From IMG/VR virus record IMGVR_UViG_3300029319_000291, positions 1 through 31,072 of that record: DNA of 31,072 nucleotides. One strand, 5' to 3'. Of this stretch, positions 499 to 17,800 are shown piece by piece. Source of the stretch: a virus. Below the pieces are notes generated by a model. It was not told where the DNA came from. It was given only the letters and a program-made list of their open reading frames with translations, and made no database searches. Both the position numbers and the translations under genes were made by a program. The stretch's first letter is position 1; each line of letters begins with the position of its first letter.

Positions 499-520
499 CG
501 GGCCCCAAAATGAGTAGTCA

Positions 521-655
521 TATAATCCAAACAGGCCGCAAGCAGTCGGGCCGCAAGGCCCGCCCTATAATCCACGCAGGCCGCAAGTTCGCAAAACCGC
601 AAGCACCCCATATAATCCCGTCGGGCCGCAAGCTCCTGGGCGGGGCGCACCCACC
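521..655 (+). repeat. 45-bp degenerate tandem repeat (TATAATCC + CCGCAAG)
   Basis: TATAATCC occurs at 521, 566 and 611, exactly 45 bp apart. Each is followed about 7-8 bp later by GGCCGCAAG, and the first two units carry a second CCGCAAG 15-16 bp further on. CCGCAAG is found in all at 536, 551, 581, 597, 626, 699, 707 and 737. The third unit decays after about 45 bp. Each TATAAT could serve as a -10 element; only the third has a passable -35 (TTCGCA at 588-593, spacer 17). No Shine-Dalgarno or convincing gene accompanies the array, so I read it as a regulatory or structural DNA/RNA element. Confidence 0.8.
547..562 (+). other. Perfect GCAA-tetraloop hairpin
   Basis: CGGGCC (547-552) pairs perfectly with GGCCCG (557-562) around a GCAA tetraloop. 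A close relative, CGGGC-CGCAA-GCCCG, lies at 733-747. Both are built on the CCGCAAG motif of the surrounding repeats, which suggests the repeats are maintained as RNA or cruciform hairpins. There is no T-run after either, so they are not terminators. Confidence 0.7.
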
Positions 656-748
656 TGGGCGGAGCAGCTCGCAAATAAAAAAAAATAATACTAATAAGCC
701 GCAAGCCCGCAAGCCGCGTATAAGGCGTGTGGCGGGCCGCAAGCCCGA

Positions 749-812
749 CCCCCTACCCTTGTACCCCCTGACCCCCAAATCCCCCTGTAAGGAGAGAGGG
801 GGAGGGGGTGGG
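749..812. other. G-quadruplex-forming tract (minus strand 749-785; plus strand 798-812)
   Basis: On the plus strand C-runs lie at 749-753, 756-758, 764-768, 772-776 and 781-785. The minus strand therefore has five G-runs (3-5 G) with loops of 2-5 nt, a canonical G-quadruplex pattern. Immediately after, the plus strand itself has G5-A-G5-T-G3 at 798-812. CCCCCT (781-786) can also pair with AGGGGG (797-802) as a simple hairpin, so the two folds compete. No gene covers this tract. Confidence 0.6.
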
Positions 813-5479: not shown

Positions 5480-5710
5480 AAAGTAGAGGGTATATTTATA
5501 TATCTATATACCTCTCTTTAGAGAGTGACCCTACTGACCCTATGACCCACCCTTATAAATCAATAACTTAGCATACCGTAGGGTCAAGGGTCACGGTGGG
5601 TCAGTCTGACCCTACCCGACCCTACACTAAACCGCGCCAGAGTAGGGCTTTCAGCTAGGTAGGGTCAATCGACTCCGTTTTTTTGACCCTACCCTTTGAC
5701 CCTACCCGAG
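5480..5710. other. Probable replication origin: iterons plus AT-rich block
   Basis: Eleven copies of TGACCC(TAC) lie within about 180 bp on both strands. Plus-strand sites are at 5526, 5535, 5543, 5607, 5617 (one mismatch), 5684 and 5697. Minus-strand sites (seen as GGGTCA) are at 5581, 5588, 5598 and 5662. The best consensus is TGACCCTACC. An AT-only stretch containing GGTATAT...ATATACC arms (5489-5495 with 5506-5512) lies alongside and could be the unwinding element. Clustered direct and inverted iterons beside an AT-rich block, upstream of a primase-helicase gene, are typical of replication origins. Regulator-binding sites are the alternative. Confidence 0.7.
5658..5693. repeat. Perfect 11-bp inverted repeat within the iterons
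   Basis: GGTAGGGTCAA (5658-5668) and TTGACCCTACC (5683-5693) are exact reverse complements around a 14-nt loop that ends in a T-run. Each arm is a full iteron. The structure could be a cruciform or a paired site for a dimeric initiator. In the rightward direction it has no T-run after the stem, so it is not a terminator. Confidence 0.75.
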
Positions 5711-13397: not shown

Positions 13398-14463
13398 ACA
13401 GATCGATGAAAAGATTGTTGAGCTCGAGACTCGATATCGCAATCACCTGGGCATGAGCGGCATAGGCGATGACGATGAGAGAAAGCTTTGGCTAGGGTTC
13501 AGACACTGCCTTAATTCTAGTTTTGAGGGGCGCATGCTTAGATTATTTAATCTAGGAAACCGCATCGAGGACCAGGTTGTAGATGACATCAGAAGAACTG
13601 GGATCATTGCGGTCGCTAGTGAAGACGAGAATGGTAAACAATTTAGCGCGTCACTTCTTGGTGGACACTTTGCTGGATCATGCGATGGAATACTTAAAGG
13701 TGTATTACCAGAGCCCGATGAAGAGACTATTGTTCTGTTAGAAGTAAAAAGTGCCAACGATAAGCGTTTTAGAGAACTCCAAAAAGAGAGAGATTACGGA
13801 AGTTGGAGTGAAACTTATCGTTGGCAAATCCATTGCTACATGGGTGCGATGAGTTTAACACATGCTTTAGTCGTTGTGGTAAATAAAAACAACAGTGAGA
13901 TCTACTCTGAGATCATCGAGTTTGATCCGAGCATTTGGGAGAAGGCCCAAGAAAAAGCCAGGAAGATAATATGCAGCGACTCCCCTCCTCCGCCCTCGAG
14001 GTCTGAAAGTGACTGGCGTATTAAGAACGAAAGCACTGTGTATCAGGACGTTTATTTCAAAAGACGCCTACCACAATCGGTTAACTGTCGCAATTGTAGA
14101 AATTCAAAGCCTGTTGTAGAAAGTAATGGAGCCACTTGGTTCTGCTCCAGAAGAAACAAGGCACTAACTTTTGAAGAGCAGAGAAGTGCATGCGATGACC
14201 ATTTGTGGATACCTGCATTGGTTAATGCTGATTACTTACCCGATGAAAGCACTGAGGATGAAGTTGCTTATCGAGTTGGTATCATGAAGATCTTTAATGT
14301 GATCTCGAGCAAGCGAGGAGAACATCGTTACACCAGTTGTGAAATGCGTGAACTATCCAAGACTGGTTTTGATTTAGAGATGATAGAGAGTATGGAGCCT
14401 ATTAGAAATGAATTTGATGGAACTTATGTTGAGGTGAAAGATGAGGGAACCGTTCCGTTTTAA
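13375..14463 (+). CDS. PD-(D/E)XK nuclease (RecB/Cas4-like) with Cys cluster
   Basis: Probable exonuclease producing ssDNA for the Sak4/DUF669 pair. The catalytic pattern is complete: Glu65 (GNRIEDQV), Asp104 (GSCDG), Glu123-x-Lys125 (LLEVK) and Gln151...Tyr155 (QIHCY). Cys238, Cys241, Cys257 and Cys273 in the C-terminal third could bind zinc or an iron-sulfur cluster, as in Cas4/AddB-type nucleases. AGGGGA precedes ATG 13375 inside the helicase gene. The stop TAA shares TTAA with the opposing gene's stop. Confidence 0.82.
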   Translation: MLSTQIFEQIDEKIVELETRYRNHLGMSGIGDDDERKLWLGFRHCLNSSFEGRMLRLFNLGNRIEDQVVDDIRRTGIIAVASEDENGKQFSASLLGGHFAGSCDGILKGVLPEPDEETIVLLEVKSANDKRFRELQKERDYGSWSETYRWQIHCYMGAMSLTHALVVVVNKNNSEIYSEIIEFDPSIWEKAQEKARKIICSDSPPPPSRSESDWRIKNESTVYQDVYFKRRLPQSVNCRNCRNSKPVVESNGATWFCSRRNKALTFEEQRSACDDHLWIPALVNADYLPDESTEDEVAYRVGIMKIFNVISSKRGEHRYTSCEMRELSKTGFDLEMIESMEPIRNEFDGTYVEVKDEGTVPF

Positions 14464-14822
14464 GCTGTCTTCTCTTGGACTACGTCTGCTCTTGGGTTTT
14501 TTACTATTACTATTACCGTTCCAGGGTACAGGGCTTCAACTAGTTTTTTCTTTAACTTAAACACTTGAGTGAGCACACCCTTGGTATCCTCTACCACTGT
14601 CTCGCCATTTACTTTATATCTAAAGTCAGCAATGTATTTACATATGTGTTTGCCTTCAACTTCACACTTGTAAGGGATCTGTACTTCTAGATCAGTAATG
14701 TGGCCACTGTTCTCTAATGCTTTGAGAATCTTGTATCGAGCGCCTTCTAGTTTGGAATCAAATACAATGCCATCGTACTCAACCTTGATCGCTTTGTATT
14801 TTGACTTTCTTCGGAGGGTCAC
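14460..14822 (-). CDS. DUF1064 PD-(D/E)XK resolvase-like nuclease
   Basis: The 120-residue protein has the DUF1064 layout: KYKAIKVEYDGIVFDSKLE near the start (with the catalytic-type Glu in SKLEGARY), then Y-IADFRY, VVEDTKG and a LKKKL helix. DUF1064 proteins are phage endonucleases related to T7 endonuclease I or Holliday-junction resolvases. The start is GTG 14822, overlapping the stop of the 1332-residue virion gene as GTGA. It is thus the last gene of the late leftward operon rather than part of the recombination operon it physically abuts. Confidence 0.83.
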   Translation of the reverse strand: MTLRRKSKYKAIKVEYDGIVFDSKLEGARYKILKALENSGHITDLEVQIPYKCEVEGKHICKYIADFRYKVNGETVVEDTKGVLTQVFKLKKKLVEALYPGTVIVIVKNPRADVVQEKTA

Positions 14823-17800
14823 CGCACACCCATCAGTTTATCTATCTCAACTTGTCTTAATACATCATCGGACTGTCGATTAAATAAAGATGATCGAGTC
14901 GGAAGTTTGATTGGTTCTGGCGGCTCAAACAAACTGGTGTCTGGTTGTGCTGAAATTGCTGGTAATCTATTCGGCGTAATGTCTGGCAAAGGCCTTCCAA
15001 AAACTTTAGTCGCTTCTGTCTGTATCATTGACATGTCAATCGGGTTTGCAGCTTTAGTTGCAGTCTCTTGCTGTGCCTGGACAATCGTTTCTTTTGATGG
15101 GAAGAAAGGCACAAACTGACCCCTCATAACCTTTTCATACTTGGGCGTCTTAGCTCGCTTCAATGGTTTTGCTATCTCTGAATCGGTCATACCAAGTGCT
15201 CTTGCATCTTCAATTGCTATTGATAAATCTCTCAACGCTTTGAATCGCTGCTCATTGCTCAAGACGTAGGCTTTGGTTATATCCTCTGCACTTTTGGGGC
15301 TACGACTTCGAGCAACTGAATTAAATATTCTAGCTGCTTGCCTAACATTATCTGATGCTTCAACGCCTCGATAATACAATGTGTTTTCTAACTGAGGTTT
15401 TAATATCTTTACACCACTCAAGGACTCAGCAAACGTACCTGCTGTGTTTAACCTTTCTCCTTTTCGATTCCTCATGGTGGCTGGATCCATTCCAAACGCC
15501 AGTCCAACTGATTTAGGGAAGTCTTTAAAGTTGAAGTCAATGTATTCAACTAAAGGAATACCAGTACCAGACAAAACTGTATCAGTACTAGCAGCGAACT
15601 CTCCAGGAGATATTCCGGGTGTTAAGGCCTCAGCAATGTGAGCAAATCTCTTGGCAAACTTTAGATTGAATGGATCTGCTTCGTTAACAATGGGACGATC
15701 GAACTGAGTTCTGTTCCTGACAATATCTAAAGTCTTTTCAGCAACCATGGCCTCGCCAAAGAACGGAGTGAAGAACTCTCCAGTAGATTCGGTGAGTGCG
15801 TTAAGAGTTATTTCTCCGAGCTCTTGCTCAGAAGTTATACCATTATTGACCGCATTCCAAAGACCACTGATTGGTCTCTTCAAATAGTCGTATGGGTTTG
15901 TGTATGAGAAGTTATAAAGCTCAGTTATGTTTCCGTCTTTATCTGATCCAACAGGGATCAATACACTATTCCTATCCCAAGGTGCAGCGAATGATCTCTT
16001 GTAGGCATTAACTTGTTCATTGTCTACACCAGTCAATGCGAGCCCCGCAGCATAAAGTCCTGTATTAAGACCGCCAGTAACAGCACTAAGACCAACAAGT
16101 CTTCTCATCCCAACCGATCGAACCGCTGCTGACTCACTAGCAAGCTCTTTAACTGATCGACCCAAGATATTAGATCCAGTACGCAAGATTTCAGCAGGGA
16201 ACGCGATAAAGTTTCCGACTACAGGAATGCGCCTGATGTTTTGAATAAGTAATGGTACTCGAGAATAGTTGGGGACCGTGTCCTTGACAATTGCTACAGC
16301 TTCTCGCTTGAGAAAAAGATCTCTAGCCTCATCACTAAGTTGTCGCACATCTACATCCAGACCAAACTCAGTGATGTTTCTTACATCAGTGGCTGGAATC
16401 TTTGCGTTAGGATCTGCTTTTAATATTCCTTCTAACCTACCCTTTTCCATTTTGTAGCTATAGATCTTCCAGATATCATCAGATCCTTGGTAAAGCTTGT
16501 TGGCGAATGTGCTTTTTCTACTCGATGCAACGTCAATTATTTTACGGTTAAATATTTTTGCATCGCCAAGGTAAGAGCTGCCGGCATCCTTAATAAGATC
16601 TTCCCACTCTCCTTTCCTAGCGCCGCTGTCTACTAGTCCTAACTCTATGTATTCATCAAACTCTTTATCTAAACCAGCCTTGTTTAAGCCACTGCTGGGA
16701 CCAGTTAGGTTTGCTTTTTCAGCTAATCGATATTTATCAAAGGTGTTGTTAAACACCAGTCGGGCAGAGTCCACAAGGTCTTGGCCTCTTCCAAAATTAC
16801 CATTGGCTAATGCAAAGAAAGAAGCTGTTGTTGCGTTTCTTATTTGAGTAATCGGGCTATAAACTGTCTTAGCCATCTGAGATATACCCTTCACACCTAA
16901 TAGAGTAGCGTAGAATTTATTTTGCGATAGGCTATCAAAGATTCCGGGTATGTCTTGAAAAGCTCTTACATGCTCTTCTCTTGCCCACTTGCCGTTTAAT
17001 TCTCCAAACTTTAATCGATCGCCTTTTGAGTCACTTCCTATCTGAGCCCAGTTAGCCAGGTCATCACCAATCTCATCTGCTTCTTTTAGGAACTTGGCAT
17101 TAGCTGGGAGTGCATTATTAAAATCATTGATGCGTTGAAAGTACCTGCCCTTGGTGATGATTTTTGACTGACCTTCTATGGTCTCTTGAACTTTAGTAAG
17201 CAGTCCTTCTTTTCTTTCTTGGAGTGGCCGATTGGTTGTGTAATAAGTTCCATCAGCTTTTTTGGCTCTTACTACTGCATCACCTGTATATTCACCAAGA
17301 AACTCTCGAATAGCGGGAAGGTTATCTAGCTTTCTTCCTTTGAGCGGTCCTTGAGCAGCAGCATAGAGAACGTCCTCATCAAACTGCATTCGAGTTTCCA
17401 TCTTGCTTGCCCCGAAGTTTTTACGAGAAAGCATGTTTCTGAGAATGGTGTTTATCTCTGCATTTAACTCTGCTCCAGGAGTCCTCCCCTCATTGAGCAG
17501 CAATGTTTTTAATTCATCTTTAGCTGCCTGAGTTTTTTCTGCGCTTGGAACATAGTCAGGATCTCTTAACGATCGATAAGCTCGAGTGCCGTAATACTCC
17601 ATCTGAGCATTAATGGTCTCTCTTAAATTTTGATAGAACTCATCATCACCTAATAGTTTTAATTTTGTTTGGTCTGTCAGCATGAGCGATTGTTCTTTGA
17701 TCTGCTTTTTAATATCGGTTGCAGCCTCGAACAAACTAACACGCTTGGTGTCTGTTCCTTTATATAAAGAACCAATCTTTTCATCTAGCTCTTTGAGAGC

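Follow-up and report, generated by a model that had tools for sequence, protein, structure and literature searches.

Oriented CGCAAG repeat arrays beside GP88-superfamily genes in marine phages: candidate boundary modules of exchangeable early-gene cassettes

The stretch of DNA analysed here (the window) spans a virus record of 31,072 bp, a linear contig whose left end cuts a GP88-superfamily gene. From left to right, the 3' part of this gene is followed by a terminator, a repeat region (approximately 511–760), a C-rich/G-rich hairpin, a promoter and small early ORFs. The truncated gene (2–469, + strand) is of type A (phrog_1617/PF17338), with E values of 7.9e-17 for Pfam GP88 and 4.2e-27 for phrog_1617; the full-length homologue in the closest relative, L002 (contig 3300025168_001813), encodes a protein 95% identical to that of the window and matches Pfam GP88 with an E value of 1.6e-28. 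The repeat region had been predicted to lie between a terminator and an early promoter, and both were found. The intrinsic terminator (474–498, +) combines a GAGGGC/GCCCTC stem and GCGA loop (474–489) with a T9 tract (490–498), and a fold of 464–500 gives −17.2 kcal/mol (z −3.7). On the other side of the repeats, a C-rich then G-rich hairpin (765–818, +; −29.2 kcal/mol, z −2.2) ends in GGGGGTGGGCGCGATTA, and similar G-rich ends with GCGA(C/T)T are seen 3' of the array in L002, L193, L157 and L239. The early promoter (878–906, +; TTGATG-17-TATAAT) is sigma-70-like with 10/12 matches and is shared with L002, the only contig returned by a scan with the promoter string. The first small early ORF 3' of the promoter (971–1282, +; 103 aa) had no match in a family search and found no relatives when used as a query. 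The early leader contains AAGGAGAGACAACTTAA (936–952), which is identical over 17 nt to phage T7 (L385) at approximately 404–420, possibly by chance; the T7 counterpart is the phiOL leader, 3' of the SRL array, and L002 retains AGAGACAACTTAA. Further along the window, a second non-coding short-repeat array (5526–5705; GACCCTA six times on the + strand and TAGGGTC twice, inverted) sits in the intergenic space upstream of a minus-strand terminase small subunit cluster.

Within the repeat region, TATAATCC occurs exactly at 521, 566 and 611, confirming the predicted three-copy repeat with its 45-bp step. CCGCAAG occurs exactly at 536, 551, 581, 597, 626, 699, 707 and 737, the eight copies claimed for 536–743, and all of them form an oriented array on the + strand (core CGCAAG at 537, 552, 582, 598, 627, 700, 708 and 738). 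This is far above chance: the array holds eight of the ten CCGCAAG copies in the 31 kb, where shuffles of the whole window gave a mean of 2.48 and at most 7, and the most frequent 7-mer of 501–760 occurs 8 times, where the top count in 500 dinucleotide shuffles averaged 2.1 and never exceeded 4. The steps between copies are 15, 30, 16, 29, 73, 8 and 30 bp; most come close to a multiple of 15 or of 7.5, and a single step is 8. Direct reading of the sequence also reveals an A+T-rich patch within the array (671–697, +). Three TATAAT boxes (521, 566 and 611; 521–632, +) each lie 16 bp 5' of a CGCAAG (537, 582 and 627), a distance that is exact for all three TATAA boxes both in the window and in L002.

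The original prediction had offered three ideas for this region, two of which (a multi-start promoter array and a structured small RNA) draw on these boxes and on local hairpins. Of the three TATAAT boxes, only that in 588–616 (a 10/12 promoter match) is preceded by a −35 element at 16–18 bp, and outside L002 the box is seldom kept, most other relatives having TATATA or CATATA patches between their CGCAAG sites. Both predicted hairpins are present (543–566, −13.0 kcal/mol, z −2.7; 729–751, −11.4 kcal/mol, z −1.6; RNA folds against shuffles), but 505–830 as a whole folds no more stably than shuffles (z −0.48), the arrays of three phages behave alike (−0.48, −0.93 and +0.14), and a search of Rfam gave no match for the array, returning two sub-threshold chance matches. 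A promoter array or a structured RNA is thus a very improbable account of the region. An ORF of 103 aa (510–821) does run across the array, but its frame is lost in relatives, where 19 of 75 indels (five groups) are multiples of three; the claim that no protein is encoded stands.

At the level of sequence, what is conserved is the CGCAAG core, as opposed to the hairpins or the repeat unit of 45 bp. L002 carries six CGCAAG sites at the same place, and of the 11 CGCAAG hexamers that can be aligned between it and the window, 10 are the same in both, against 6 of 307 other hexamers. Across the five groups of relatives, hexamer conservation is 0.89 for CGCAAG and 0.55 for the rest; these ratios are upper estimates because the alignments were partly anchored on the motif and may exaggerate its conservation. 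The relatives examined preserve neither the period of 45 bp nor the reading frame, and RNA structure is not conserved either. The expectation that related phages would carry the element therefore holds for its location, where a repeat recurs, and fails for the period and the hairpins. Comparison of the sequences makes an array of binding sites the best fit among the three original ideas, and the original interpretation as a whole is partly supported.

We scanned IMG/VR for three closely spaced CGCAAG sites. Among the matches listed are many marine phage arrays that lie between genes and have 5 to 10 sites, and one locus (L154) has the gene order of the window (GP88, array, small ORFs and an opposite-strand terminase small subunit). 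Taking a non-coding array as five sites or more within 300 bp and a GP88 neighbourhood as 2 kb, 34 of 44 non-coding arrays among the matches listed have a GP88/DUF7227-superfamily gene nearby, on the same strand in 34 of 34 cases; for arrays within long open frames the figure is 5 of 63 (all site counts summed, among the matches listed). The other ten of the 44 have no complete GP88 gene in the retrieved sequence; in L268 and L201 the gene is cut. The GP88-superfamily genes among the matches listed, 34 of them distinct, mostly have arrays on both sides (23), with four flanked upstream only, three downstream only and four on neither side, and the flanking sites number 254 on the strand of the gene and 7 on the opposite strand (likewise among the matches listed). 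Loci were chosen by the presence of an array, whereas gene type, strand and second flank were not selection criteria. An unbiased 6-mer search of both flanks returned CGCAAG, with low counts for reverse-strand controls, and in L003, which was selected without reference to the motif, the search found CCCGAA on both sides. L002 lacks the upstream array, HMO-2011 has GP88 and no array, and the window is unable to show an upstream array because the contig starts inside GP88.

Searches in other directions were less productive. The whole region found no match among phage isolates, and an exact IMG/VR search with TATAATCCNNNCNGGCCGCAAG gave a single unrelated match. A genome scan for the host returned 89 matches, mostly within long open frames of unrelated genomes, and one phage-like MAG contig (L313). 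CGCAAG-rich repeats were also seen on six contigs (L286, L287, L338, L342, L346 and L354) of the Bacteroidetes MAG HyVt-532. The flanked genes belong to the families PF17338 (GP88) and PF23872 (DUF7227), and in the openly licensed papers searched we found neither CGCAAG arrays nor a link between GP88 and repeats. Oriented CGCAAG arrays are apparently an undescribed class of repeat arrays.

Four types of gene are linked to the arrays: A and B, which both belong to PF17338, C1 (PF23872 DUF7227), and C2, whose match to DUF7227 is weak at best. Types A and B have little sequence similarity and the same CGCAAG motif; an A1/A2 profile comparison alone fails to join them, while Pfam joins both. An AlphaFold model of the L002 GP88 protein (pLDDT 87) gave eight best VIA matches that are all radical SAM enzymes (Z 5.2–6.2, all below Z 8), including QueE (Z 6.2), viperin, pyruvate formate-lyase activase, TYW1, RlmN and DesII, with unrelated barrels at 4.8 and below. 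The model aligns to 5th5 with an rmsd of 4.9 over 170, and C41, C49 and C53 are invariant in 37 homologues. A Foldseek search with the model gave no significant match (best E 0.055). The model nonetheless points to a probable radical-SAM-like fold for GP88. A fold assignment for type B was dropped since its predicted structure is too poor (pLDDT 67).

Some radical SAM enzymes act on RNA (RlmN, TYW1), and this resemblance, together with the strict strand agreement between arrays and GP88 genes, could be read to mean that transcribed CGCAAG units are bound or modified by GP88 as a decoy, autoregulator or guide. However, in the window and in L002 the hairpin precedes the array, which consequently lies outside the predicted GP88 transcript, and a DNA-level role is favoured. 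The array has no structured RNA signal, and types A and B share one motif despite being dissimilar, so that we consider an RNA-level partnership rather improbable. A broader proposal, in which the GP88 protein and a lineage-specific oriented array would form a two-part phage system, the protein binding or modifying the array (as DNA or RNA) in, for example, early counter-defence and the motif co-evolving with the host, seems to us likewise improbable.

Other motifs occupy comparable positions. In the Pelagibacter phage isolates HTVC120P and HTVC309P, AGGGGCGA arrays of five and four copies lie downstream of GP88, copy numbers that no 7-mer equalled in 200 shuffles, and in HTVC309P the motif is directly 5' of the next gene, a position that would also suit action on RNA. 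An IMG/VR scan with AGGGGCGA, run as a test of the GP88 linkage, gave 113 loci. For non-coding arrays of at least five sites, 13 of 22 have a GP88-type gene no more than 2 kb away, all 13 on the same strand, although the effective number is below 13 because many of these are probably related phages; within long open frames the proportion near such genes is 4 of 68. Plausibly the motif is set by the host, with Pelagibacter phages sharing one motif and CGCAAG phages another. Further repeats were observed at GP88 genes of another phage group (L008, L021, L025 and L037), where CAAAAACT/CAAAAATC arrays lie downstream of the gene, and in Mycobacterium phage DirtyDunning (L384, 1–1251), where CTTGACATCGC occurs five to six times upstream of GP88 at the right genome end and looks like repeated promoters. 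In phage DSL-LC04 (L283), a 700-bp intergenic region (14329–15029) 5' of the large terminase gene is full of CGTGGCC/CCCTGG repeats, with GTGGCC present eight times (above all shuffles) and a DUF7227-type gene approximately 1.4 kb away. Candidate arrays of other motifs in CRP-235 and Lo5R7ANS were weak by shuffles and were set aside.

Comparison of related contigs shows flanked genes replacing one another. In three groups, a type A gene is replaced by a type B gene between near-identical flanks: L259 or L154 (A) versus L216 or L224 (B), L236 (A) versus L193 (B) and L256 (A) versus L198 (B); the three contig groups possibly have a shared history. The DNA homology on the left reaches as far as the start codon. 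Homology on the right begins again within or beside the array downstream of the gene for two of the groups (L259/L216, L154/L224; L236/L193), earlier in L154/L216, and just 3' of the stop codon in the third (L256/L198). L154 and L259 also differ by the presence or absence of two small ORFs, with the junction inside the array. The usual anatomy of these loci is stop codon, hairpin, oriented array, promoter and early gene. Of 20 loci, 18 have a hairpin with six pairs or more ahead of the array (13% in shuffles), and 8 have a promoter that matches at 10/12 or above beyond it (2.9% in shuffles). The gap between array and promoter ranges widely, from a few bp to over 100 bp. In L254 and L270, CGCAAG clusters were seen between successive small genes, some ending no more than approximately 20 bp from a TTGACA-like promoter.

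Junctions inside or beside arrays are what would be expected of a recombination hotspot, i.e. Chi-like sites or sites of simple homology used by phage or host enzymes for exchange or deletion of early cassettes. The phage of the window encodes Sak4-like, helicase and Cas4-like exonuclease genes, the single orientation of the sites would reflect the reading direction of a nuclease-helicase, and CRP-125 contains CTGGTGG, which we take to resemble the E. coli Chi core. However, the left junctions fall at the start codon, outside the array, and CGCAAG elsewhere in the window is neither enriched nor strand-biased (five copies on + and eight on −). A pure homology site, moreover, needs no terminator and promoter on either side. 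We regard a hotspot as unlikely, if deserving of consideration.

The array also invites comparison with the SRL of T7, in which a 7-base motif (CCTAAAG, against CCGCAAG here) is repeated eight times without mismatch on one strand, just 5' of early promoters. SRL and SRR flank the T7 terminal repeat, and an analogous role in packaging or concatemer processing, or alternatively an iteron origin melting at the AT-rich patch, could be imagined for it; GP88 is among the first genes in many linear phage records. The T7 repeats have a near-constant step of approximately 13 bp, whereas steps in the window range from 8 to 73 bp, and the arrays described here flank GP88 genes. In none of the window, G042 and G047 does GC skew turn at the array, though skew follows gene direction; terminal repeats were not found in the two long contigs checked; and G047, L254 and L270 each have several separate arrays, unlike a single origin. 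A genome-end or replication element is, by our estimate, improbable.

The reading that we favour, tentatively and at somewhat less than even confidence, is that the region is a boundary module of transcription units in exchangeable early-gene cassettes, with the oriented array binding a putative factor. Since the arrays flank swappable GP88-family early genes, they probably mark and control the cassette borders. The array would be a cluster of asymmetric sites for a nucleic-acid-binding factor, probably host-supplied or common to many phages because one motif serves different GP88 types. Where two units meet, such a factor may act along the direction of transcription to insulate, to silence or to set early expression, and the repeated modules could in turn supply homology for cassette swapping. 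Several observations count against the boundary reading: the range of array-promoter distances, which would be unusual for a classical activator; the strong promoter matches at only 8 of the 20 loci; and the ten arrays of 44 with no complete GP88, the missing upstream array of L002 and the absence of an array from HMO-2011.

A model for oriented action at a unit border is provided by the stoperators of mycobacteriophage L5, which are asymmetric, lie in short intergenic spaces and follow the direction of transcription in their orientation (PMC9283540). The arrays share these properties, with 254 sites on the same strand and 7 opposite. They differ in that stoperators are 13-mers spread genome-wide and bound by a phage repressor, whereas here a 6–7 bp core forms eight sites within 210 bp and the motif is common to distinct phages. 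The PeSLs (promoter early stem-loops) of T4-type phages, as cited in PMC4503421, place a stem-loop and an early promoter between genes and are tied to gene shuffling. The window has a stem-loop (474–498) and early promoter (878–906) between genes in the same way, but with an oriented array between the two, and it may come from a different kind of phage: its tail/stabilization protein matches podovirus-like phages, and no T4-type gene was found among ten proteins scanned. The array has some defining features of each class, departs from SRL and from the stoperators in one tested feature or more, and is at most a candidate PeSL; we therefore assign it to none of the three.

Easily recognised by sequence, strand-specific and repeated with other motifs among phages whose hosts are cultured (Pelagibacter), the arrays lend themselves to tests of binding, expression and deletion. 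They offer a handle on the swapping of early genes in abundant marine phages and on the role of the widespread GP88/DUF7227 proteins, and a motif common to different phages may act as a host signature for uncultured phages.
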